NCBI RefSeq assembly: GCF_025244825.1
Contig: NZ_CP104263.1
Coordinates: 310,001-374,000, forward strand
From: Arthrobacter jinronghuae
GTDB lineage: Bacteria > Actinomycetota > Actinomycetes > Actinomycetales > Micrococcaceae
DNA length: 64,000 nt
Direction of reading: 5' to 3'
Under the pieces are notes generated by a model. That model was not told the DNA's origin, ran no database searches, and was given only the letters and a program-made list of their open reading frames with translations. Made by a program: the position numbers and the translations under genes. This document shows positions 1-13,375 of this stretch, piece after piece; positions within the stretch are counted from its first letter, which is position 1; the number at the start of each line of letters is the position of its first letter.

Positions 1-2753
1 AGCAGATCAAACTGGGCGGCCGGCGGATTGAGCTCGGCGAGATTGACGACGCCCTGAGCCGGCTGCCGGGCGTGGCCGCGGCTTCCGCCGCCGTCCATTC
101 CACCCAGTCCGGAAACCGGGTGCTGGCTGGATATCTGGTCCCGGCGGCCGGGGCCACCCTGGACCTGGGTGCCGCACGGGCCCAGTTGGCACAGAACCTG
201 CCGGCATCCATCGTCCCGTCGCTGGGAATCGTCGATGAGCTGCCGATGAAGGCCTCGGGGAAAGTGGACCGCAAGGCCCTGCCCTGGCCATTGCCGGTTA
301 GGGAAACGCCGACCGACGTCCGGGTGGAGCTCAACGCCGATCTGCGTTGGCTGGGCCAGCGGTGGACCGATCTGCTGGGACCGCTGCCGTTGACCGAGGA
401 AAGCGATTTCTTTGCCCTGGGCGGAGCGAGCCTGGCTGCAGCCCAATTGGTCTCTGCACTGCGGGAACGTTATCCGAAGGTCTCGGTTGCCGATATCTAC
501 GAGCATCCGACGCTGAGCACGATGTCCGACCATTTGACGTCACTGCGCGACTCAACCCTGGACGTCCGTGAAACCCCCGAGTCGCCCTGGTGGCTGGGGC
601 TGGTGCAGGCACCGCTGATCGTGGCCCTCTACGGGATCACGGGCCTGCGGTACGTCACCGGTATCGCCATCGTGTGCATGGTGATGTTCCATGTAGTGGG
701 CAGTCCCTGGACGCCGGATCCACCAGTAGTTCCCACCCTCGCGGCCTGGCTGGCCCTGTACAGCCTGCCGGCACGGATGGTGGCCGCGGTGGTGTCGAGC
801 AGGTTGCTGCTCTTGGGAATAGGCCCCGGCATTTATCGGCGCGGCGGCAGCACCCACCTGAGGCTGTGGGCAGCGGAACGGATAGTGACGTACTGCAAGC
901 TCGAGCCCATCATGGGATCCCCGCTCGGCATTTGGTATGCCCGCCGGCTGGGCTGCAACATCGGCGAAGGCGTGCACCTTGACGCCATGCCGCCCGTTAC
1001 CGGTTTTGCGTCGATAGGCGACCGGTCCTCCATCGAATATGAAGTAGACCTGGCGGGCCACTGGATTGAAGGCGGACAACTCCACATCGGCCGCGTGCAG
1101 ATCGGCGAAGACGTGCGGATCGGTGCACGGTCCACGCTGATGGGCGGGGCGAAAGTGGGCCGCGGAGCCGAAACGGAACCGGGGACCCTGGTTTCCGGGG
1201 AGATTCCCGCAAATGAACTGTGGGCGGGATCCCAGATGCGGAAGACCGGTAGCGCCGGAGCGGGGTGGCCCACGGAAGCAGCACCGACGTCGGAATCCCG
1301 CAGAGTACGGTTGCTCTACCCGGCTTCCCTGGCTGGCATCGCGTTGTTGAACCTCCTTTCCATAGCGCCCGGATCCGCCCTGATGCTGTGGCTGCTGAAC
1401 GGGGTTTCCTCCTTCACGGACGCCTTGTGGATCCTGGCCGCCTGGGCACCGGTTTTCGTGGTGATTTCCATGCTGATGTTCCTCGCACTCACCGCCGCCG
1501 TGGTCCGCGGTACCGCCCGTCTAATGCCCGAAGGCATGCACCCGGCGGACGGCATGACAGGCTGGGCGTCCTGGTTGAGCAACGTGATGCTTAGCCGGTC
1601 GCTCATTACGATGTATCCGATCTACGCCAGCGTGCTCACGCCGGTGTGGACGCGGCTCCTGGGAGCGAAGGTCGGGCGCCACGTGGAGATTTCCACCATG
1701 GAAACCGTCCCGCACCTGACACGGCTGGAGGACCGGACCTTCCTGGCGGACCACTCCATGGTGTCCGCGCGGCGAGTGCGCCAGGGGTGGCTGCACCTCG
1801 GCCAGGCGAGTGTCGCGGAACAGTCCTTTGTGGGGAATTCGGCGATCGTCGGGCCGGACACGCACGTTCCGGATAACTCCCTGATTGCGGTGCTTTCCTC
1901 AGTCCCCAAGAACATGCCGGCCGGTACTTCCTGGTTCGGGCGTCCGGCGGTGGAGCTTCCGCGGCCGGTGCAGGTGGGGGACACCGCACGGACCTACGAT
2001 CCTCCCCGACGACTGCTGGTTGCCCGAAGCGCGGTTGAAGCATGCAGGATCCTGCCGGCGGTGATCACGGCCTGGCTGGCCCTGCTGACCGTCTGGGCAT
2101 TGGCCGGACTGTACGACGCCTTCGGGTTCCTCACGGCCGTCCTGTGGTCCGGCCCGGTCCTCCTTCTGAGCGGGATCGCAGCAGCGCTCATTGCCGTCAT
2201 GGCGAAGTGGCTGCTGGTGGGCCGTTTCGAGGCTTCGGAGCACCCGCTTTGGAGTTCGTTTGTCTGGCGGAATGAGCTGGCGGACGTGTTTTCGGAATCC
2301 CTGGCCGTTCCCGGCCTGGTGCGGATGAGTCTGGGCACCCCGATGCTCAACGCCTGGCTGCGCTGGATGGGTGCACGGATCGGCCGCAGCGTTTGGTGCG
2401 AAACGTGGTGGTTGCCGGAATTCGACCTGATACAGGTGGGCGACGGAGCGAGCATCAACCGCGGCACGGTACTGCAGACGCACCTTTTCCATGACCGGAT
2501 CATGCGCCTGGACGAAGTAACCCTGGGCGACGGTTCCACGCTGGGACCCAACAGCATCGTGCTGCCGGGCAGTGCCATCGAAGAGGGCGGCACCGTCGGA
2601 GGCTGCTCGTTGGTGATGCGCGGGGAAAGCGTCCCCGTGAACAGCGCCTGGTGCGGCAACCCCTTGGCGCATTGGGGCCAGAGCCGCCCGATGGAACGCC
2701 GTGCCCGTCACCGCAAGTCGATTGAATACAAAACTGTAGGAGCAGGACTATGA
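1..2753 (+). CDS. Pls/PosA-type membrane non-ribosomal peptide synthetase, C-terminal part (5' truncated by window edge)
   Basis: The gene enters the window already open: reading from base 3 gives the adenylation-domain tail motif KLGGRRIELGEID, so the start lies upstream. About 917 residues are visible. In order: end of the A domain with the A10 motif SGKVDRKAL, whose catalytic Lys is at bases 261-263; a carrier domain with DFFALGGAS, the phosphopantetheine Ser at about 429-431; then groups of hydrophobic membrane segments alternating with three hexapeptide-rich (left-handed beta-helix) blocks near bases 950-1250, 1650-1960 and 2350-2680. This A-T-membrane-triple-repeat plan is that of Pls/PosA enzymes, such as epsilon-poly-L-lysine synthetase of about 1,300 residues, which polymerise one amino acid at the membrane. 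The substrate cannot be read because the A-domain pocket is outside the window. Its stop overlaps the next start (ATGA), so translation is probably coupled to the dapA-like gene. Confidence 0.85.
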   Translation, partial: QIKLGGRRIELGEIDDALSRLPGVAAASAAVHSTQSGNRVLAGYLVPAAGATLDLGAARAQLAQNLPASIVPSLGIVDELPMKASGKVDRKALPWPLPVRETPTDVRVELNADLRWLGQRWTDLLGPLPLTEESDFFALGGASLAAAQLVSALRERYPKVSVADIYEHPTLSTMSDHLTSLRDSTLDVRETPESPWWLGLVQAPLIVALYGITGLRYVTGIAIVCMVMFHVVGSPWTPDPPVVPTLAAWLALYSLPARMVAAVVSSRLLLLGIGPGIYRRGGSTHLRLWAAERIVTYCKLEPIMGSPLGIWYARRLGCNIGEGVHLDAMPPVTGFASIGDRSSIEYEVDLAGHWIEGGQLHIGRVQIGEDVRIGARSTLMGGAKVGRGAETEPGTLVSGEIPANELWAGSQMRKTGSAGAGWPTEAAPTSESRRVRLLYPASLAGIALLNLLSIAPGSALMLWLLNGVSSFTDALWILAAWAPVFVVISMLMFLALTAAVVRGTARLMPEGMHPADGMTGWASWLSNVMLSRSLITMYPIYASVLTPVWTRLLGAKVGRHVEISTMETVPHLTRLEDRTFLADHSMVSARRVRQGWLHLGQASVAEQSFVGNSAIVGPDTHVPDNSLIAVLSSVPKNMPAGTSWFGRPAVELPRPVQVGDTARTYDPPRRLLVARSAVEACRILPAVITAWLALLTVWALAGLYDAFGFLTAVLWSGPVLLLSGIAAALIAVMAKWLLVGRFEASEHPLWSSFVWRNELADVFSESLAVPGLVRMSLGTPMLNAWLRWMGARIGRSVWCETWWLPEFDLIQVGDGASINRGTVLQTHLFHDRIMRLDEVTLGDGSTLGPNSIVLPGSAIEEGGTVGGCSLVMRGESVPVNSAWCGNPLAHWGQSRPMERRARHRKSIEYKTVGAGL

Positions 2754-3718
2754 GTACAACTACGGGCAACACAGGAACAACGGTCTCCCGACAATTCGGC
2801 ACCGTGCTCACCGCAATGGTCACGCCCATGGACGAGCGCGGCCAATTGGATCAGGCCGGCGCCGAGGAGCTGGCCCGATGGCTGCTGCGGACCGGTTGGA
2901 ACGACGGCGTGGTGGTCAACGGCACCACCGGGGAGTCCTTCGCTACCTCGGACTGGGAAAAAGCGTCGATGATCCATTCGGCGAAACGGGTCACCGCGGG
3001 CACCGAACGGCGGGTTATCGCCGGGGTGGGCTCCACCGACACGCGGCACAGCATCGAGCTGGCCCGGGCTGCGGCAGAGCAGAAGGCAGACGGACTGCTG
3101 GTGGTTGCCCCCTACTATTCACGCCCCACGCAAAAAGGCCTGCTGCGCCACTTCGAGGCCATTGCGGACAGCACCGACCTGCCGGTGATGCTTTACGACA
3201 TCCCCGCCCGCACCGGCGTCGCAATTGCCCCCGAGACCTTGGTGACGGCCGGCCGGCATCCGAATATCGTGGCGGTGAAGGACGCCAAGGGAGATCTCGC
3301 CTCCTCATCCTGGGTCATGAAGCACAGCGAGCTGGTCTATTACTCGGGTGATGACGCACTGAATCTGCCCCTGATGTCCGTTGGTGCTGTCGGCGTCGTC
3401 TCGGTGGTTGGACATGTCGCCGCTAACCGACTGCGTGCCCTGACAGTCGCGTACCGGCAGGGCCGGGTGGATGACGCGCTGCGGATTCACCGTGACCTGC
3501 TGCCGATCTACACCGGTATGTTCCGGTGCCCCGGCGCAGCATCGGCCAAGGCCGCGCTTCGGAAACTGGGGCTGCCCGCCGGCCCCGTCAGGGGACCGCT
3601 GACCGACCTGAGCGAAGAGGAGACGGACCTGCTTGTGGCAGACCTCACCGCAGCGGGGTTGCCGACTACGCTTGCGTCCGGCCCCGCAGTCCCTGATGCT
3701 CTGGCACGGGTGTATTGA
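2750..3718 (+). CDS. dapA: DapA-like 4-hydroxy-tetrahydrodipicolinate synthase
   Basis: Class I Schiff-base aldolase of 322 residues that condenses pyruvate with aspartate semialdehyde, the first committed step to diaminopimelate and lysine. Visible family residues are the NGTTGES loop (T59, T60), Tyr149 in LYDIPARTG and the Schiff-base Lys177 in IVAVKDAKGDL. The ATG overlaps the stop of the peptide synthetase and has AGGAG seven bases upstream, inside the previous gene. The setting is unlike a housekeeping dapA: it sits in an operon with a Pls-type polymer synthetase. This suggests (inference) a dedicated copy that raises precursor supply for a lysine- or diamino-acid-type polymer. Other members of this aldolase family, such as KDG or 2-keto-acid aldolases, share the motifs, so the exact substrate is less certain than the fold. 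Confidence 0.85.
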   Translation: MSTTTGNTGTTVSRQFGTVLTAMVTPMDERGQLDQAGAEELARWLLRTGWNDGVVVNGTTGESFATSDWEKASMIHSAKRVTAGTERRVIAGVGSTDTRHSIELARAAAEQKADGLLVVAPYYSRPTQKGLLRHFEAIADSTDLPVMLYDIPARTGVAIAPETLVTAGRHPNIVAVKDAKGDLASSSWVMKHSELVYYSGDDALNLPLMSVGAVGVVSVVGHVAANRLRALTVAYRQGRVDDALRIHRDLLPIYTGMFRCPGAASAKAALRKLGLPAGPVRGPLTDLSEEETDLLVADLTAAGLPTTLASGPAVPDALARVY

Positions 3719-3732
3719 GCAAAGGGGGAAGC

Positions 3733-5088
3733 ATGAGCGGGTCGTCTCAGGCAGCGGTGGGCAAACGGCGAGTGACCGGTGTCGATGCTGCCCGGGGAGC
3801 GGCGTTGATTGCCATGATGGCGATCCACATCCTGCCCGCCTGGAATGAGGAGTTCGCCCCCACGCTCACCTGGCTTCTGTTCGCCGGCCGGGGAGCCGCG
3901 CTTTTTGCACTGCTCGCCGGGATATCGCTGGCCTTTATGTCCGGCGGCAAGCACCCTCCGCGGGGACGGAAGATGGCTGCCGCCCGGTATGGACTTGCGG
4001 TGCGCGCTGCCCTCATCACCGTCATCGGGCTGTTTCTCGGCTACCTCGCCGTCAACGCACAGGTGATCCTCGTCTATTACGGCGTGATGTTCCTGCTCGC
4101 CCTTCCGCTGCTCGGGCTGCGTGTGCGGACCCTGCTCGTTCTTGCTGCGGGTATTGCCGCCGCCGCCCCTGTCCTGATGCAGGTCACCAGGGATTGGCTG
4201 CCGGACATGGGCGGGGTGGAACCCAACTTCTCCACGCTCGTTGAAGCCCCCGGCGGTGTCATTGGCCAGGTCCTTCTTTCCGGTACGTATCCCGCACTGC
4301 CTTGGATGGCGTACGTCTGCGTCGGACTGGCTATCGGCCGGCTGGACCTGGCCGAGCGGGCGGTGCAGATTCGGCTGCTGGTGGCCGGCGTCGCCCTTGC
4401 CCTTGCAACAGCCGTCCTTTCCGCCCTCATCCTCGGCCCCATCGGCGGGCGGCAACAGCTGGTGGACGCGACGTCGGAATGGACTTCGGCCCCGGAGGAA
4501 ATCGTTGGGGACATCCTGATCTGGGGGCCGGATCCGGTGCTGCCGACGGATTCCTGGTGGTGGCTTGCCTCCTTGGCTCCCTATTCCAGTACGCCGCTGG
4601 TGCTGGCCAACACCATCGGCACCTCGGCCGCGTTCCTGGGGGTGCTGCTGCTGGGCGGCGCCCGCGGGCGGTTCCTGTGGCCCTTGGCTCTGCTGGGAAA
4701 GATGACCTTGACCCTGTACTCCCTGCACCTGATCCTCCTGGCCACCGGCCTGCTGGCGGACCAGCCAGTGCCGGCAATGATTCTCCAGTTGGTCATCATT
4801 TCGGCCTTCGCCTCCATCTGGCTGCGGTACGCGGCCCAGGGTCCGCTGGAAAAGGGAGTTGCCGAAGCCTCGAAGTGGGCGCGGAACAAATACCTGGCGC
4901 GCCTGGGAGATCCGCGGGAGAGCCGGACGTCGCCGATAAATCCAGCGGCTGCGGGAACGACGACAGAGCCGCCTGCCCCGTCGTCGTCGGAACCGCGCGG
5001 AGTGGCGTACCCGCCCGCCCCGTCCTACCCGCCAGCTCCGCCGGTGCCGGAAGGCAGGGCCCGCCACCGAGCCCGTCAGCGCAGTTGA
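3733..5088 (+). CDS. Multi-pass membrane protein, heparan-alpha-glucosaminide N-acetyltransferase-like (DUF1624 type)
   Basis: Integral membrane protein of 451 residues. The N-terminal VTGVDAARGAALIAMMAIH matches the signature opening of the DUF1624/HGSNAT group of membrane acyltransferases (RxxxlDxxRG followed by the first membrane helix and a conserved His). About ten hydrophobic segments follow, then a Pro/Ser-rich cytoplasmic-looking tail of some 60 residues. The ATG at 3733 is preferred because AAAGGGGG lies just upstream; an in-frame TTG at 3715 has no such site. It starts 14 bases after the dapA-like gene and its stop overlaps the next start. In this operon it could acylate or help export the polymer or an envelope component; that role is inferred. 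The donor and acceptor cannot be told from the sequence. Confidence 0.75.
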   Translation: MSGSSQAAVGKRRVTGVDAARGAALIAMMAIHILPAWNEEFAPTLTWLLFAGRGAALFALLAGISLAFMSGGKHPPRGRKMAAARYGLAVRAALITVIGLFLGYLAVNAQVILVYYGVMFLLALPLLGLRVRTLLVLAAGIAAAAPVLMQVTRDWLPDMGGVEPNFSTLVEAPGGVIGQVLLSGTYPALPWMAYVCVGLAIGRLDLAERAVQIRLLVAGVALALATAVLSALILGPIGGRQQLVDATSEWTSAPEEIVGDILIWGPDPVLPTDSWWWLASLAPYSSTPLVLANTIGTSAAFLGVLLLGGARGRFLWPLALLGKMTLTLYSLHLILLATGLLADQPVPAMILQLVIISAFASIWLRYAAQGPLEKGVAEASKWARNKYLARLGDPRESRTSPINPAAAGTTTEPPAPSSSEPRGVAYPPAPSYPPAPPVPEGRARHRARQRS

Positions 5089-6233
5089 TGCTGTTGAGTC
5101 ATGCACGCCGTCTCGGGCTTGCGGCAGCCGCGGCGCTGCTTGCTGCCCTTTTAGTGCCTGCTCTGCCCGCGGCCGGTGCCGAGCAGGAGCACGACCCCTG
5201 TGCGAGGCTCAACGCGGGGGAAGTCCGCTACTCCGTCCGTGAAGCCAAGCGCGTCACTTTCGCGACGGCGGAAAAATACGGAGCTACGGAAACCCGCCTC
5301 ACCGGCTGCGTTTTCGAGGACGGGGCCTATGTACAGGAATGGCAGTCCTGGGGCTTCAGCGGCCGCAACGGCTTTGCACCCCCGGGCAGCATGTGGGAGA
5401 ACACCTTGTATTCACCGACAGGGTCCTTCAGCTTCACCGAGGCGCTCGGCCGCAGCAACCCGGGCACGGAACTGGAATATCACGAGCTGAAACCCTCCTC
5501 CCGGTGGGGCGGGAAGCACGGGGAGAACTATAACCAGTACTTCGAAGGGGAAGGCGAAGGCGCAGACGAGAACCTTTGGCGGTACATGGAGCAGGGCCTC
5601 TATGAGCAGGCAGCCGTGATCAACTGGAACCGCCAGCCGGATATGCCGACCCGGCAGGGTGCCTCCTTCGCCATCTTCTTCCATGCCGGGTACGCGCCAA
5701 CGTGGGGCTGCATTTCCACGGACCTGGCCACGGTCACACGGTTGCTGCGCGGGGCCGTCCCGGGCGACCGCATCGTTATGGGGACCGTGGAGGACGTTTT
5801 CACAGCGTCCACTGCCGCTTCCGAAGCTGCCGCTGCCGCTGCGGCCAGGGCAGAAGAGAAGGCAGCGGCAGTCGAGCAAAGGTTGGAGACGCTGACTCAC
5901 GTGCTGATGACCCTCGGCGTGCTGGCGGCTCTGGGGCTGCTGATTCGGCTCGCATTCAAGCGGGCCGGGCGCCAACGGAAACCGCGGCGCGCTCCGCCGA
6001 GCGCTGACTCATTCGCCAAGACGGCGGCGTCGGACCGTCAGGCTGCGGCAAGGCCACGGGCCCATACGGGGTGGTCCCCGCCGGCGGAAATCCCGCCGGC
6101 AGGCGCGTCCCTGCCGCTCGACCGACCGTTGGACCCGTCGCTCGATTCGTCGCTGGATTCGCCGTTGGATTCGCCGCTGGACAGTGAGCGTGAAAGGAAA
6201 CCGCGGGAGGACGTTTCTTCGCGTAAGCCCTGA
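5088..6233 (+). CDS. Secreted, membrane-anchored L,D-transpeptidase-like protein
   Basis: Protein of 381 residues starting at an ATG that overlaps the previous stop (TGATG). Residues 1-31 form a signal peptide ending ALPAAGA. The central part (about 150-235) carries FFHAGYAPTWGCIS, with His199 and Cys208 spaced as in the HxnGC(I/V)(R/S) active site of YkuD-type L,D-transpeptidases. Cys38 and Cys74 could form a disulphide. An Ala/Glu-rich helical stretch (240-268) leads to a single membrane segment (272-290) and a basic tail with a short LDS(P/S) repeat near the end. This places the catalytic domain outside the membrane. L,D-transpeptidases act on the diaminopimelate or lysine of peptidoglycan stems. 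In a polymer-synthetase operon it may attach or tailor the product at the wall, which is inference. Confidence 0.7.
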   Translation: MLLSHARRLGLAAAAALLAALLVPALPAAGAEQEHDPCARLNAGEVRYSVREAKRVTFATAEKYGATETRLTGCVFEDGAYVQEWQSWGFSGRNGFAPPGSMWENTLYSPTGSFSFTEALGRSNPGTELEYHELKPSSRWGGKHGENYNQYFEGEGEGADENLWRYMEQGLYEQAAVINWNRQPDMPTRQGASFAIFFHAGYAPTWGCISTDLATVTRLLRGAVPGDRIVMGTVEDVFTASTAASEAAAAAAARAEEKAAAVEQRLETLTHVLMTLGVLAALGLLIRLAFKRAGRQRKPRRAPPSADSFAKTAASDRQAAARPRAHTGWSPPAEIPPAGASLPLDRPLDPSLDSSLDSPLDSPLDSERERKPREDVSSRKP

Positions 6234-6263: not shown

Positions 6264-6464
6264 GTGAACCAGACACCTGCCGCCGAGGGGACAGCCTGGA
6301 CGGACCCCGACGACGCAGCGGATGAGGGCAGGTTGCTGTACGAGGAACGCGCGGCCCTCCTCCCGGGGTTGTGGATGCCTCCGGCACCCGACTGGGAGGA
6401 CCTGTCCGAAACGGACCGGCAGCGGTGGCGCCAATACGCCCAGGACGCGGAAAACGACCTATAA
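6264..6464 (+). CDS. Small hypothetical protein
   Basis: GTG-initiated frame of 66 residues with a weak AAGGG upstream. The product is acidic, rich in Asp, Glu and Trp, and ends in a likely amphipathic helix (SETDRQRWRQYAQDAENDL). No signal peptide, membrane segment or known domain is visible. It lies between the L,D-transpeptidase-like gene and the M1 peptidase, all on the same strand, and could be the last gene of the upstream operon. Actinobacterial-looking composition and third-position GC favour a real gene, but no function can be proposed. Confidence 0.45.
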   Translation: MNQTPAAEGTAWTDPDDAADEGRLLYEERAALLPGLWMPPAPDWEDLSETDRQRWRQYAQDAENDL

Positions 6465-6512
6465 GGCCGGTTCCGCACGCTACCCGTGGCGAAATCGCCG
6501 CGCCGTGTCAGG

Positions 6513-7874
6513 ATGTCGGCCATGTGGCAGACCGGATCCCACCGCCAACATCAGCACCAGACGCCCGACCCGTATACGCCCGCGTCCGGCTCCACGGAGC
6601 TGAGCATCAACGAATATGACCTGACACTTGATTACGACGTCGGCCTCAACCGGCTGAAGGGGCAGGCGCGCCTTGCCGGCTCGGCCCTGGTCGACATTGA
6701 ACAGCTCACCCTGGACCTGGACCGGCCGATACGGGTGGAAGAAGTGCTGCTTTGGTGCGCCGGAACTCCGGTGGACGTCCGTTCCTTCCGGCAGCGACGC
6801 GGCAAGCTGGCGATAACGCCCAGTCGGGACTTGAAGGCCGGTGACAGCTTTCGGCTGAGCATCAGGTACCGGGGCAAGCCGCGCGCGGGCAACGGCCTGT
6901 GGGGCGATATCGGCTGGGAGGAGTTGGCCGACGGTGCCCTCGTTGCGGGTCAGCCGACGGGGGCTCCGTCCTGGTTTCCCTGCAACGACCTGCCAGCGGA
7001 CAAAGCGCGTTATCGGATCAGCGTGACGGTGGAGTCCGGCTACCGGGTGACGTGCAACGGAGAGCTGGTCTCCCACGAAGACCGCCGCGGCCGGGAGACC
7101 TGGGTCTTCGAACAGCCCGAGCCGATGTCTACCTACCTGGCGACGGTTCAGATTGGCCGGTACGAATGCCTGGATCTGCCGGGCGACGTACCGCAGTCCG
7201 TCGTCGCACCCCCGTCCCTGGCCGACCGGGCGCGGGCCGCGCTGTCCCGGCAGGACGCCATGATGACGCTGTTTGCCTCCCGGTTCGGGCCCTATCCCTT
7301 CGGCCGGTACACGGTGGTGGTGACCGATGATGAGCTGGAAATCCCTTTGGAGGCGCAGTCGGTGTCCGTCTTCGGACGCAACCATCTGGGGCCGGCCTCG
7401 GCTTCGCTGGTGGCCCACGAACTCGCGCATCAGTGGTTCGGCAACTCGGTTACGGCCGGCAAGTGGCGGGATATCTGGCTGCACGAGGGCTTCGCAACCT
7501 ACGCAGAGTGGATGTGGGCAGAGGCGGCCGACGGCGTCAGCAGCGACCAGCGGGCCGCGGTGGATCTGGAGTGGCTGCAGCATCAGCGGCAGGACCTGCA
7601 GTTGGCCGATCCCGGGCCGGCGGCCATGTTCGACGAACGGGTTTACCGGCGCGGAGCGTTGACCCTGCACATCCTGCGGCGCAGCGCCGGCGACGGGATC
7701 TTTTTCGAGCTGCTGCAGGAGTGGACGCAGAAGTACCGGCACAGTTGTGCCGGTACCCGCGACTTTTTAGACCTCGCCGACAAGGCATATGCCTCCGCCG
7801 GTGTTTCGGCCAACGGCCTGCTGGGGCCGTGGTTGTTCGAGCCCTCGGTCCCGGAGGTTCCTTTCCGGGCCTAG
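6513..7874 (+). CDS. M1 family zinc metallo-aminopeptidase
   Basis: Gluzincin aminopeptidase of about 453 residues that removes N-terminal amino acids from peptides. The zinc site is clear: VAHELAHQWFGNS supplies His302 and His306 plus catalytic Glu303, and LHEGFATYAEW supplies the third ligand, Glu325. The N-terminal beta domain precedes it. The protein is about half the length of PepN because it lacks the long C-terminal helical domain, as in other short actinobacterial M1 enzymes. No signal peptide, so cytosolic. The start is uncertain: GTG 6486, ATG 6513 and ATG 6522 are all in frame and none has a convincing ribosome site. It converges with the DsbA-like gene and the two stops share a CTAG. 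Confidence 0.85.
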   Translation: MSAMWQTGSHRQHQHQTPDPYTPASGSTELSINEYDLTLDYDVGLNRLKGQARLAGSALVDIEQLTLDLDRPIRVEEVLLWCAGTPVDVRSFRQRRGKLAITPSRDLKAGDSFRLSIRYRGKPRAGNGLWGDIGWEELADGALVAGQPTGAPSWFPCNDLPADKARYRISVTVESGYRVTCNGELVSHEDRRGRETWVFEQPEPMSTYLATVQIGRYECLDLPGDVPQSVVAPPSLADRARAALSRQDAMMTLFASRFGPYPFGRYTVVVTDDELEIPLEAQSVSVFGRNHLGPASASLVAHELAHQWFGNSVTAGKWRDIWLHEGFATYAEWMWAEAADGVSSDQRAAVDLEWLQHQRQDLQLADPGPAAMFDERVYRRGALTLHILRRSAGDGIFFELLQEWTQKYRHSCAGTRDFLDLADKAYASAGVSANGLLGPWLFEPSVPEVPFRA

Positions 7875-8578
7875 CAGCCGTCCGGGCCGCAGGCCGGTCC
7901 GTCTGCTGACACCGGCGTCAAGTTCACCAGCGGATGGGATTCCTGCCAAGCCTGTTCCAGGGCCGAGGAGAACAAGTCGGCAGGCTGCGCACCGGAAATG
8001 CCGTACTTGTCATCGAGCACGAAGAACGGGACGCCGCTGATCCCCAGCGACCGTGCCTGGGCAATGTCAGCATTGACGGCGTCGGCGTATTCGTCAGTGG
8101 CCAGTACGGCCTTCACCCGGTCCGCGGACAGCCCGATGCCGGTGCCGATCTGCACCAGGTCGTCGGCGGACCCAATGTTCATGCCCTTTTCGAAGTGGGC
8201 CGAAAGCAGCGCTTCCTTGGCGGCGTCGGCGGTCTTGGGCCCGCCTTCCGCCTTGGCCAGGTGGATCAGGCGGTGGGCGTTGAAGCTGTTGGCCACTACG
8301 AGGGAGTCGTAGTCGTAGGACAGTCCCTCGCCGGCGGCCTGGACGGTTACCTGGTCCAGCATGCCGGCGAGCTGTTCGGGGTCGATGCCCTTGCGCTCGC
8401 TGAGGTACTCGACCTCGGTGCCGTCAAAGTGGTCGGGCAGGGACGGGTCCAGCTGGAAACTGTGCCAGTGGACTTCCACCTGGTCCCGGTGCGGGAATCG
8501 GGCGAGGGCTGCCTCGAAGCGGCGCTTGCCGATGTAGCACCACGGGCAGGCAATGTCGGACCAGATATCAATCTTCAT
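7871..8578 (-). CDS. DsbA-family oxidoreductase (FrnE-like thioredoxin fold)
   Basis: Protein of 235 residues beginning MKIDIWSDIACPWCYIGKR. The CPWC motif (Cys11-Cys14) at the start of a thioredoxin fold, with a large helical insertion and no signal peptide, matches the FrnE/2-hydroxychromene-2-carboxylate isomerase branch of the DsbA superfamily, which are cytosolic thiol oxidoreductases. The downstream GISGVPFFVLDDKYGISGAQ holds the cis-Pro loop. A longer in-frame start upstream is possible, but family members begin at this Met. Likely role: disulphide handling or oxidative-stress tolerance. It is downstream of the malate synthase gene on the same strand, with about 130 bases and a hairpin between them. 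Confidence 0.85.
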   Translation of the reverse strand: MKIDIWSDIACPWCYIGKRRFEAALARFPHRDQVEVHWHSFQLDPSLPDHFDGTEVEYLSERKGIDPEQLAGMLDQVTVQAAGEGLSYDYDSLVVANSFNAHRLIHLAKAEGGPKTADAAKEALLSAHFEKGMNIGSADDLVQIGTGIGLSADRVKAVLATDEYADAVNADIAQARSLGISGVPFFVLDDKYGISGAQPADLFSSALEQAWQESHPLVNLTPVSADGPACGPDGC

Positions 8579-8668
8579 ACCGGGTGCAACGCGCAAAGGG
8601 CCGGGAGCCATTCCCGCGGTGCCCAACGAATCGAGCACATGCGGTAATGATTCCCGGCCCTTGCTGAA

Positions 8669-8709: not shown

Positions 8710-10341
8710 CTATGCCGTGGCCAGCTCCTGCGATTCATGCAGGAAGCGGGCGTAGGCAGGCACGGTGAGGAAGGTGGGGAAATGCTCCCCGCAGGCGACT
8801 TCCTCAAAGAGTTCGCGGGCGTCGTCGAAGCGGTCACCCTCGAAGCGCTGCAGGCTCGTGAACTCCTCATCGAGCAGTTCCTCCACCCACTGGTGAGTCA
8901 CTACGTCGCCCTCATCGGTCAGCGCGGAGCAGTGGATCCACTGCCAGATCTGCGAGCGGGAGATTTCCGCGGTGGCGGCGTCCTCCATCAGGTTGTTGAT
9001 GGCGGCCGCACCGTTGCCCCGCAGCCAGGACTCGATGTAGCGGATACCCACCTCGATGTTGCTGCGGATGCCGGCCTCGGTGATGACGCCCGGCGTGGAA
9101 GCGATGTCCAGCAGTGCCTTGTCGTTGGGCACCACGTCTTCGCGGGTCTTCTCCAGCTGGTTGGGCCGGTCGCCGAGCACCCCGTCGAACACCTCCATGG
9201 CCACGGGGACCAGGTCCGGGTGCGCCACCCACGATCCGTCGAAACCGTCGCCGGCCTCGCGGGTCTTGTCGGCGCGCACCTTCTCCATGGCGACGTCGTT
9301 GGCTGCGGCGTCCTTGCGGTTCGGGATGAAGGCGGCCATGCCGCCGATGGCGTGGGCACCGCGGCGGTGGCAGGCACGGACCAGCTGCTCGGTGTAGGAA
9401 CGCATGAACGGTGCGGTCATGGTGACCATGTTGCGGTCCGGCAGCACGAACCGGGGTCCGCGGGTCCGGAAGTTCTTGATGACCGAGAAGATGTAGTCCC
9501 AGCGGCCGGCATTCAGGCCTGCAGCGTGGTCCCGCAGTTCGTAAAGGATTTCCTCCATCTCGAACGCGGCGGTGATGGTTTCGATCAGGACCGTGGCGCG
9601 GATGGTTCCCTGCGGGATGCCGAGCAGGTCCTGGGCCAGGACAAAGATGTCATTCCAGAGCCGCGCCTCGAGGTGGTTTTCAATCTTCGGCAGGTAGAAG
9701 TAGGGACCGCGGCCCTGGGAGATCAGGCGCTGGGCGTTGTGGAAGAAGTACAGTCCGAAGTCCACGAGGCCGCCGGCAATCGGGGTGTTGTCCACCAGCA
9801 TGTGCTTTTCGGGCAGGTGCCAGCCGCGGGGGCGCACCACGATGGTGGGCAGCTCGGTGAGGGAGGCACTCTTTACCCGGTATTCCTTGCCCTCCGGGGA
9901 GGTGAAGTCGATGCGGCGGTCCAGGGCGTCGCGCAGGTTCAACTGGCCGTTGATCACGTTGGACCACGACGGCGTGGAGGAGTCCTCCATGTCCGCCAGC
10001 CACACCTTCGCGCCGGAGTTCAGGGCGTTGATGGTCATCTTCCGGTCCACCGGTCCGGTGATCTCCACCCGCCGGTCCTCCAGCCCGGGAGCCGTGGGGG
10101 CCACCTGCCAGGAGTCGTCCTCGCGGATGCTCCGGGTTTCGGGCAGGAACGTCGGGTCCGCACCGTTGGAAATCTGCGTCCGGCGGGTCTGACGCTGCTG
10201 AAGGAGTTCCTGCCGCCGGGTGGCCGTGGCCCGGTGCAGCGCCTTGACGAAGTCCAACGCCTGCGGGGTGAGGATTTCCTCCTGCCGCCGCACTACGGGA
10301 GCGGTGAGGGAAATGCCGTTCAGGGTGATCGGGTCATTCAT
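8710..10341 (-). CDS. aceB: Malate synthase A
   Basis: Condenses glyoxylate with acetyl-CoA to malate, the second step of the glyoxylate shunt. The 543-residue length is that of the A isoform, not the 720-residue G isoform. Family motifs include ITGPVDRKMTINALNSGAK followed by the acidic ADMEDSSTPSW, IETITAAFEMEEILYELRDH, and DGSWVAHPDLVPVA. The ATG at 10341 is preferred over in-frame codons upstream because GGAGA lies six bases before it. It is downstream of isocitrate lyase on the same strand with about 90 bases between, so co-transcription is likely, and both are expected targets of the divergent RamB-type regulator. Confidence 0.95.
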   Translation of the reverse strand: MNDPITLNGISLTAPVVRRQEEILTPQALDFVKALHRATATRRQELLQQRQTRRTQISNGADPTFLPETRSIREDDSWQVAPTAPGLEDRRVEITGPVDRKMTINALNSGAKVWLADMEDSSTPSWSNVINGQLNLRDALDRRIDFTSPEGKEYRVKSASLTELPTIVVRPRGWHLPEKHMLVDNTPIAGGLVDFGLYFFHNAQRLISQGRGPYFYLPKIENHLEARLWNDIFVLAQDLLGIPQGTIRATVLIETITAAFEMEEILYELRDHAAGLNAGRWDYIFSVIKNFRTRGPRFVLPDRNMVTMTAPFMRSYTEQLVRACHRRGAHAIGGMAAFIPNRKDAAANDVAMEKVRADKTREAGDGFDGSWVAHPDLVPVAMEVFDGVLGDRPNQLEKTREDVVPNDKALLDIASTPGVITEAGIRSNIEVGIRYIESWLRGNGAAAINNLMEDAATAEISRSQIWQWIHCSALTDEGDVVTHQWVEELLDEEFTSLQRFEGDRFDDARELFEEVACGEHFPTFLTVPAYARFLHESQELATA

Positions 10342-10383
10342 GGCGTTCTCCTTGTGGTCTTTCAAGACTGTGGCGGTGATGCC

Positions 10384-10431: not shown

Positions 10432-11730
<1,299 letters not shown>

Positions 11731-11875: not shown

Positions 11876-13375
11876 GTGACGCCTACTACATGGAATAGAC
11901 CCGCTCCTGACTCCCCGAAGGGCGGATTGGGGCCCGATGCCGAGCGCACGCTGGACGTCATCAGCCTCGGCCGCCGCGTGCGGCACCTGCGCAAAGCCAA
12001 GGGCATGACGCTCGATGACCTGGGGGCCGCCGTCGGAACCGTGGCGTCCCAGTTGTCCCTGATCGAGAACGGCAAGCGGGAGCCGAAGCTCGGCATGATG
12101 CAGTCGCTGGCCGCTGCGCTGGATGTCAGCATCGATTCCCTGCTGGGCTCGGAGCCGCCGAGCCGGCGTGCCGCGCTGGAAATCGAGCTCGAGCGGGCGC
12201 AGCGCGGCCCGCTCTACGCTTCCCTGGGCCTGCCGAAGGTACGGATCGGTTCGCGGTTGCCCATCGACGTCCTCGAATCCCTGGTGGGGCTGCAGGCCGA
12301 ACTGGAACGCCGGCTCAACGAGCAGGTAGCCACCCCCGAGGAAGCGCGCCGGGCCAACGGTGAACTGCGGGCCATGATGCGTGAGCGGAACAACTACTTC
12401 CCGGAATATGAGGCGGAAGCGCAGAAGGTACTGGATTCGGTGGGGCACACGTCCGGTCCGCTGTCCCAGCACGTGATCGCCGATATTGCGGCGCACCTGG
12501 GCTTCAGCCTGCACCACGTCAACGACCTGCCGCACTCCACGCGCTCGGTCACCGACCTGAAGAACCGGCGCATCTACCTGACCCAGTCACAGCGTTCGGA
12601 CCACGATCCGCGGTCGGTGCTGCTGCAGGCACTGGGGCACTACGTGCTTCAGCACCAGACTCCCAGCAGCTACGGCGAGTTCCTGGGCCAGCGGGTGGCC
12701 ACGAACTACTTCGCCGCCGCGCTGCTGCTGCCGGAGAAGGCCACGGTCGAGTTCCTGCAGCGGGCCAAGGCCGCCAAGGAAATTGCCGTGGAGGATATCC
12801 GTGACGCCTTCGCGGTGTCCTATGAAACCGCCGCACACCGGTTCACTAATCTCGCCACCGAGCATTTGGGCATTCCCACCCACTTCCAGAAGGTGCACGA
12901 GAGCGGCATTGTCTACAAGGCCTACGAGAACGACGGCGTGACGTTCCCTGCGGACCACACCGGCGCCATTGAGGGCCAGCCGATCTGCCGGTACTGGACC
13001 TCCCGGGAAGTCTTTTCCGTACCCGACCAGTTCAGCGCGTTTAACCAGTACACCGACACTCCGGCCGGCACCTACTGGTGCACGGCCCGCACGGAGCGGG
13101 GATCGGCAGGCAAGTTTTCGCTCAGCATCGGGGTGCCGTACCAGCACGTGAAGTGGTTCCGGGGCCGGGACACCACGGAACGTTCCAAATCCCGCTGTCC
13201 CGATCCGGACTGCTGCCGCACCCCTCCCGGGGAGCTGGCGTCGGAGTGGTCCGGCTTTGCCTGGCCCAGCGCACGGGCACATTCGCACCTGCTGGCTGCC
13301 CTGCCGCCCGGCGCCTTCCCCGGTGTGGACGAGACCGAGGTGTATTCGTTCCTGCAGGCGCACTCGGAACAGTGA
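11876..13375 (+). CDS. ramB: RamB-type XRE regulator with ImmA/IrrE-like domain
   Basis: Regulator of 499 residues. Residues about 30-85 are an XRE helix-turn-helix (RRVRHLRKAKGMTLDDLG through SQLSLIENGKREPK). The middle holds an IrrE N-terminal-like (metallopeptidase-fold) region, where the zinc-binding HExxH is not evident, and the C-terminus has a Cys-rich stretch (CPDPDCC). This architecture is that of the short-chain fatty acyl regulators RamB and PrpC-type activators. In C. glutamicum RamB represses the glyoxylate genes, and here it is divergent from aceA-aceB, which strongly supports the same circuit. GTG start; an ATG two bases earlier is immediately followed by a stop. Confidence 0.88.
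   Translation: MTPTTWNRPAPDSPKGGLGPDAERTLDVISLGRRVRHLRKAKGMTLDDLGAAVGTVASQLSLIENGKREPKLGMMQSLAAALDVSIDSLLGSEPPSRRAALEIELERAQRGPLYASLGLPKVRIGSRLPIDVLESLVGLQAELERRLNEQVATPEEARRANGELRAMMRERNNYFPEYEAEAQKVLDSVGHTSGPLSQHVIADIAAHLGFSLHHVNDLPHSTRSVTDLKNRRIYLTQSQRSDHDPRSVLLQALGHYVLQHQTPSSYGEFLGQRVATNYFAAALLLPEKATVEFLQRAKAAKEIAVEDIRDAFAVSYETAAHRFTNLATEHLGIPTHFQKVHESGIVYKAYENDGVTFPADHTGAIEGQPICRYWTSREVFSVPDQFSAFNQYTDTPAGTYWCTARTERGSAGKFSLSIGVPYQHVKWFRGRDTTERSKSRCPDPDCCRTPPGELASEWSGFAWPSARAHSHLLAALPPGAFPGVDETEVYSFLQAHSEQ

Follow-up and report, generated by a model that had tools for sequence, protein, structure and literature searches.

A co-inherited Arthrobacter gene block for the probable synthesis and surface handling of an epsilon-poly-L-lysine-type polymer

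The DNA analysed here, referred to as the window, is 64,000 nt long and represents bases 310001–374000 of the single-contig 3.64 Mb genome of Arthrobacter jinronghuae. Its 5' end lies within a block of 11,490 bases that probably constitutes a self-contained, co-inherited functional unit for making and handling an epsilon-poly-L-lysine (epsilon-PL)-type polymer at the cell surface. There is good support for assigning the block to polylysine-type biosynthesis, with accessory proteins that act at the surface. The block encodes, in order, a phosphopantetheinyl transferase (PPTase), an HGSNAT-type membrane protein A (divergent), a polylysine synthetase (Pls), a DapA paralog, an HGSNAT-type protein B, a YkuD-fold exported protein, a possible open reading frame (ORF) of 66 codons and an M1 peptidase. 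The features of the block and its downstream flank are:

L009:10385–11128: PPTase (PF01648), beyond HGSNAT-type A, upstream of Pls
L009:11125–12309, opposite strand to Pls: second HGSNAT-type gene (protein A), upstream of Pls
1–2753, plus strand: 3' part of the class II Pls gene, with the end of the adenylation (A) domain, carrier domain, six membrane helices and three C-terminal domains
2750–3718, plus strand: DapA paralog (4-hydroxy-tetrahydrodipicolinate synthase), catalytic residues retained
3715–5088, plus strand: HGSNAT-fold membrane acyltransferase-like protein B; the likelier start is the ATG at 3733
5088–6233, plus strand: YkuD-fold exported protein, with signal peptide, catalytic domain, C-terminal membrane helix and charged tail
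5682–5717, plus strand: catalytic motif of the YkuD-fold protein, HAGYAPTWGCIS (H199, G207, C208, S210)
6264–6464, plus strand: possible 66-codon ORF between the YkuD-fold and M1 genes, without a Pfam match
6486–7874, plus strand: M1 metallopeptidase (HELAH), homolog of the peptidase adjoining classic pls; final gene of the block
7871–8638, minus strand: FrnE-like DsbA protein (named by eye), a flank outside the unit

The Pls, DapA, HGSNAT-type B and YkuD-fold genes overlap one another on a single strand, as proposed in the initial annotation of the window. That annotation had also placed part of the operon upstream of the window, and the 5' end of Pls, the PPTase gene and the second HGSNAT-type gene are located there; the complete Pls gene has 1,351 codons and its start (L009:12698) is 1,302 bases upstream of the window. 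The four genes it described stand, but the block is larger, and the M1 peptidase gene inside the window had been missed.

Inheritance of the block within the genus is all-or-none. Pls (E 1e-100 or better), operon-type DapA (E 1e-90), the YkuD protein (E 1e-20) and the M1 peptidase (E 1e-30) are each found in 12 of 29 genus genomes. These are the identical 12 genomes, and the remaining 17 have none of the four. By coordinates, the order Pls-DapA-HGSNAT-YkuD-M1 is present in 12/12 carriers, with a second HGSNAT gene beyond Pls in each; for the PPTase, the check covered three loci with this order (window, G100 and L080). The carriers do not represent 12 independent events because the genomes are related, and one of them (G152) is conspecific with the window genome. 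The block is flanked in the window genome by LytR_C and FrnE genes, and the FrnE-like gene is present in 29/29 genus genomes. An empty site is seen in three of five non-carrier genus genomes examined: in L222, L223 and L224, which are without Pls, the LytR_C and FrnE genes are 41 to 100 bases apart by match ends. A different sequence lies between the two genes in L225, and L226 has no LytR_C match. The position of the block varies, e.g., FrnE is found between PPTase and LytR_C in G100 and about 35 kb from Pls in G149.

At the family level, Pls is found in 80 of 149 genomes (E 1e-100 or better) and a YkuD relative in 32 (E 1e-10 or better); Pls at 62% identity or more is present in 12. Three species were added to these 12 from the best 80 of 577 relatives: Arthrobacter pullicola (L080), A. 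hankyongi (L081) and Paeniglutamicibacter antarcticus (L083). Within the stretch examined, the class II Pls neighbourhoods of the resulting 15 species show HGSNAT in 15, DapA in 13, YkuD in 12 and M1 in 7. DapA is missing at the Zafaria and G095 loci and YkuD at three Nesterenkonia-type loci. The gene set is thus conserved in relatives, although not as a complete set in every one.

Phylogenetic analysis separates the window Pls from the classic type. A tree of 72 Pls proteins (short search, midpoint root; 37 of 109 rows omitted, all from classic-type loci) divides 26 rows, the window included, from 46 classic rows with an SH-aLRT of 100. A quicker midpoint-rooted tree of all 109 rows shows the same groups (15, 11 and 83 classic) with local support of 100, and in both trees the window Pls falls outside the classic pls-pldII clade. 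The 26-row sister clade consists of the 15 class II species and 11 members from Kocuria, Corynebacterium and further family members. An HGSNAT-fold protein is paired with the sister-clade Pls in 25/26 loci vs 0/82 classic loci; it adjoins 10 of the 11 further loci, and in the exception (L088) the contig edge comes directly after Pls. No DapA, YkuD or M1 was found within the surrounding stretch examined at these 11. The 82 classic loci (67 from the best 80 of 577 relatives and 15 others) have YkuD in none, M1 in 76 and PPTase in 11; two have a DapA-family match, 30% identical and on the opposite strand. Flanking sequence is shorter than 4 kb on one or both sides in six of the 82. L083 also has a classic Pls, which was left out because it adjoins a class II cassette, and L082, L084, L085 and L119 were excluded from counts as duplicates of G030, G042, G119 and G083. 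L086:14094–15245, with a stop in the stretch, was omitted from alignments A4 and A5 and entered one tree with X at the stop.

The Pls architecture is an AMP-binding domain, a carrier domain (PF00550) and then a TIGR02353 region at 581 bits; no condensation or thioesterase domain was matched in the domain search. A simple hydropathy scan reveals six helices as three pairs after the carrier domain, which is the published layout in the available text of PMC8117764. The best PDB match of the A domain is 7wew, a solved epsilon-poly-L-lysine synthetase (610 bits). The window pocket DAESIGTVIK is identical at 9/10 positions to DAESIGTVVK of 7wew (read by eye from the alignment), the one difference being a conservative exchange of V for I. 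Among 109 Pls rows the codes are DAESIGTVVK (86), DAESIGTVIK (21) and DAESIGTIIK (2). All three point to lysine, and by this sequence evidence the product of the block is very probably a polymer of lysine residues joined to one another. The initial annotation had left specificity to be read from the upstream sequence; that reading gives the lysine code and rules out a non-cationic A domain. It is very improbable that the A domain activates another diamino acid and that the polymer is not lysine. The one pocket residue that differs from classic Pls would fit such a specificity, but nine are identical, three Nesterenkonia members of class II Pls carry the exact classic code, and DapA feeds the diaminopimelate-lysine branch, an established pathway.

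The operon DapA scores 253 bits against TIGR00674 (equivalog cut-off 206). There are three DHDPS-family genes in the window genome, one scoring slightly above the operon copy and the third weaker. A separate main dapA is present in 10/10 searched genomes with the operon copy, the window's included; the operon gene is therefore neither the only dapA of its genome nor the housekeeping one. In a DapA tree the 13 operon copies form one group (support 74/87, modest) apart from 12 main copies, which are 42–49% identical to the window operon DapA. Long branches among distant DHDPS rows triggered a program warning for this tree, from which the duplicates L001 and L084 had been removed. Residues matching T44, Y107, Y133, R138 and K161 of E. 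coli DapA are retained in 13/13 operon copies, and the position matching T45 in 12/13 (N in L083). A supply of lysine precursor for the polymer, the role first suggested for this gene, is a well-supported inference from the retained active-site residues and from a cited 19.8% increase in epsilon-PL on dapA overexpression in a Streptomyces, according to the available text of PMC8506220.

The peptidase encoded at 6486–7874 has PF01433 and PF17900 matches. An M1 peptidase in the unit is a feature that the window block shares with the classic pls-pldII cassette. Together with the nine shared pocket residues it is consistent with ordinary secreted epsilon-poly-L-lysine as the product, with DapA, HGSNAT and YkuD as accessories that add no new polymer chemistry. 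This alternative is doubtful, given the lack of HGSNAT and YkuD at all 82 classic loci and the classic Pls also held by 7 of the 12 class II carriers in the family sample, in which making the same product twice would be redundant. In Paeniglutamicibacter antarcticus a classic Pls-M1 cassette is back to back with the class II cassette (L083:3193–16900). Three genomes with an HGSNAT-paired Pls (G061, G083 and G049) show no M1 match at E 1e-30, from which it may be that the product of such a Pls does not need M1 self-protection.

The HGSNAT-type protein matches PF07786 above cut-off and has the HGSNAT fold. Sequence profiles against PDB were nearly empty, with one match only for HGSNAT (E 0.63) and nothing at E 1 for the YkuD protein, and both proteins were therefore pursued through predicted structures. 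Residues H31 and H331 are invariant in 15/15 HGSNAT-type proteins, their correspondence to human residues being judged by eye only; the catalytic residues of human HGSNAT are an Asn and a His. Human HGSNAT takes acetyl groups from acetyl-CoA in the cytosol and passes them to an amine across the membrane. A third HGSNAT-type protein is found near the main dapA in 12/12 loci examined (L210–L221), within about 200 bases in nine. In the window genome this gene is at 1318966–1320159, beside dapA at 1320298. There are thus two distinct settings in which the family accompanies dapA. All 17 genus genomes that lack Pls encode one HGSNAT-type protein each.

The YkuD-fold protein displays the fold with catalytic His and Cys present, as seen in the predicted structure and alignment, and the catalytic residues are invariant. 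The H-to-C spacing in the window protein is short relative to the usual motif. A Pfam search with the window protein matched 0 families, and 25 of 40 aligned relatives match YkuD Pfam at E 0.01 or better. The gene is on the same strand downstream in 5 of 12 loci and divergent upstream in 7. Across loci, hydropathy and inspection by eye show a C-terminal helix in some proteins, a lipobox in others, and in the rest no more than an N-terminal helix or signal peptide. The nearest named relatives are from Arthrobacter strains. Relatives away from Pls (L076–L079), about 57–64% identical, are in longer frames, which with the LGFP or FG-GAP repeats of some homologs suggests a wider surface family. Independent YkuD recruitment to Pls in separate lineages was considered; the best tree has two changes, but the claim was dropped because a single YkuD clade is not rejected (p-AU 0.373).

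Csd6 is the top structural match in Foldseek and also in VIA, followed closely by Bd1075 and Pgp2; all three are L,D-carboxypeptidases. The lead of Csd6 over YkuD and the transpeptidases is about 1 Z unit, and both kinds are within about 1–2 Z units. The protein had been called transpeptidase-like: export, the YkuD fold and the His/Cys residues hold, but the fold fits carboxypeptidases about equally. Two alternative, near-equal readings of this gene are compatible with the unit. It is quite possible that the protein works as an L,D-carboxypeptidase or remodels the wall, shielding the producer from its own cationic polymer or letting the polymer pass, the polymer being released. The Csd6, Bd1075 and Pgp2 matches favor this, and a PldII-kind M1 peptidase suits a soluble polymer, but the small Csd6 lead argues for caution. 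Slightly less probable, though plausible and in keeping with the gene linkage, is the original proposal of wall-anchored polylysine, in which the YkuD-fold enzyme moves peptidoglycan stems onto polymer amines to give a covalent cationic coat. YkuD enzymes attach Braun lipoprotein via a lysine amine. The protein is exported beside a membrane synthetase and mostly tethered, its catalytic residues are invariant and it is co-inherited with Pls in the genus. Against anchoring are the top fold matches to hydrolases and the absence of YkuD from three carriers of class II Pls.

The following scheme draws on family knowledge and sequence. The PPTase would prime the Pls carrier domain, and Pls would activate L-lysine and polymerise it via its membrane part. 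The extra DapA would supply the lysine branch during polymer synthesis. Amines of the polymer are most likely acylated by the HGSNAT-fold proteins as the chain emerges. Next to the synthetase, the YkuD-fold protein, which is exported and mostly tethered to the membrane, would act on the wall, either coupling polymer amines to peptidoglycan stems or trimming and remodelling stems to fit the polymer. By analogy with PldII, the M1 peptidase may degrade stray polymer. Gene content and order, the all-or-none inheritance in the genus, the lysine code, the folds and the catalytic residues are observed; the product, its acylation and its wall attachment are inferred. Because the block carries acyltransferase-like and exported wall-type proteins, the polymer may be surface-modified or attached and not simply released.

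Several observations weigh against this scheme. DapA and YkuD are dispensable, as the Zafaria, G095, Nesterenkonia-type and 11 further sister-clade loci show, and one of the 7 M1 genes in the 15 class II neighbourhoods is beside a classic Pls. PPTase genes occur near classic loci too. The third copy near the main dapA and the single copy in genomes without Pls imply a function of the HGSNAT family that is independent of the polymer, and the catalytic His of human HGSNAT is not obviously retained. Close YkuD relatives are found away from Pls, homologs carry LGFP or FG-GAP repeats, and carboxypeptidases are among the best structural matches of the protein. The initial annotation is partly supported, and none of the three refuting conditions it set applied: the pocket code is that of lysine, relatives keep the gene set, if not always in full, and a second dapA exists. 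The most far-reaching reading, a second kind of polylysine system with HGSNAT-fold N-acylation at membrane exit and then joining to peptidoglycan by a tethered YkuD-fold transpeptidase, is unlikely; if true, Micrococcaceae would have a polylysine coat bound covalently to the wall. What is known of epsilon-polylysine is as an antimicrobial that is released. The grouping of a sister-clade Pls with lysine supply, acyltransferase-like proteins and an exported wall-type enzyme in one block suggests a role at the surface. Two predictions are an acylated polymer and a polymer bound to peptidoglycan. The 7 carriers of both Pls types would allow a clean comparison of the two inside one strain.

A promoter scan of the locus gave zero promoter-like sites, and its four terminator-like sites are the number expected by chance. 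Just past the block are minus-strand malate synthase-like (8710–10365) and isocitrate lyase-like (10432–11730) genes, both named by eye from translation, and a divergent helix-turn-helix regulator (11876–13375, named by eye).

A thin literature search found no paper joining 'poly-L-lysine synthetase' with 'transpeptidase', and among the titles and abstract openings listed none named such a gene set. The natural role of epsilon-polylysine is described as 'less well understood' in the available text of PMC8117764. PosA of Acinetobacter baumannii, which makes delta-poly-L-ornithine, is called a homolog of the epsilon-PL synthetase in the available part of PMC10522769, but it is described as a single-gene operon and uses ornithine instead of lysine. 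The pldA cluster for gamma-poly-L-diaminobutyrate has named precursor genes, dat and ask, comparable to dapA here (PMC8117764, available text). Its precursor is different and its synthetase only distantly related; three non-lysine synthetases are given there as 31–33% identical to C. variabile Pls. The pls-pldII cassette of Streptomyces albulus and Corynebacterium variabile has the Pls anatomy, lysine code and peptidase gene in common with the block, whereas DapA, HGSNAT and YkuD genes are not mentioned in the same available text; the window Pls belongs to a sister clade of the pls-pldII Pls. The block HGSNAT-type protein is 14% identical to human HGSNAT (structures 8vli, 8vlg and others). The L,D-transpeptidases and L,D-carboxypeptidases LdtMt2, YkuD, Csd6 and Pgp2 have the fold and His/Cys motif in common with the window protein, which differs from them in having no Pfam match and in the linkage of its gene to a polymer synthetase.

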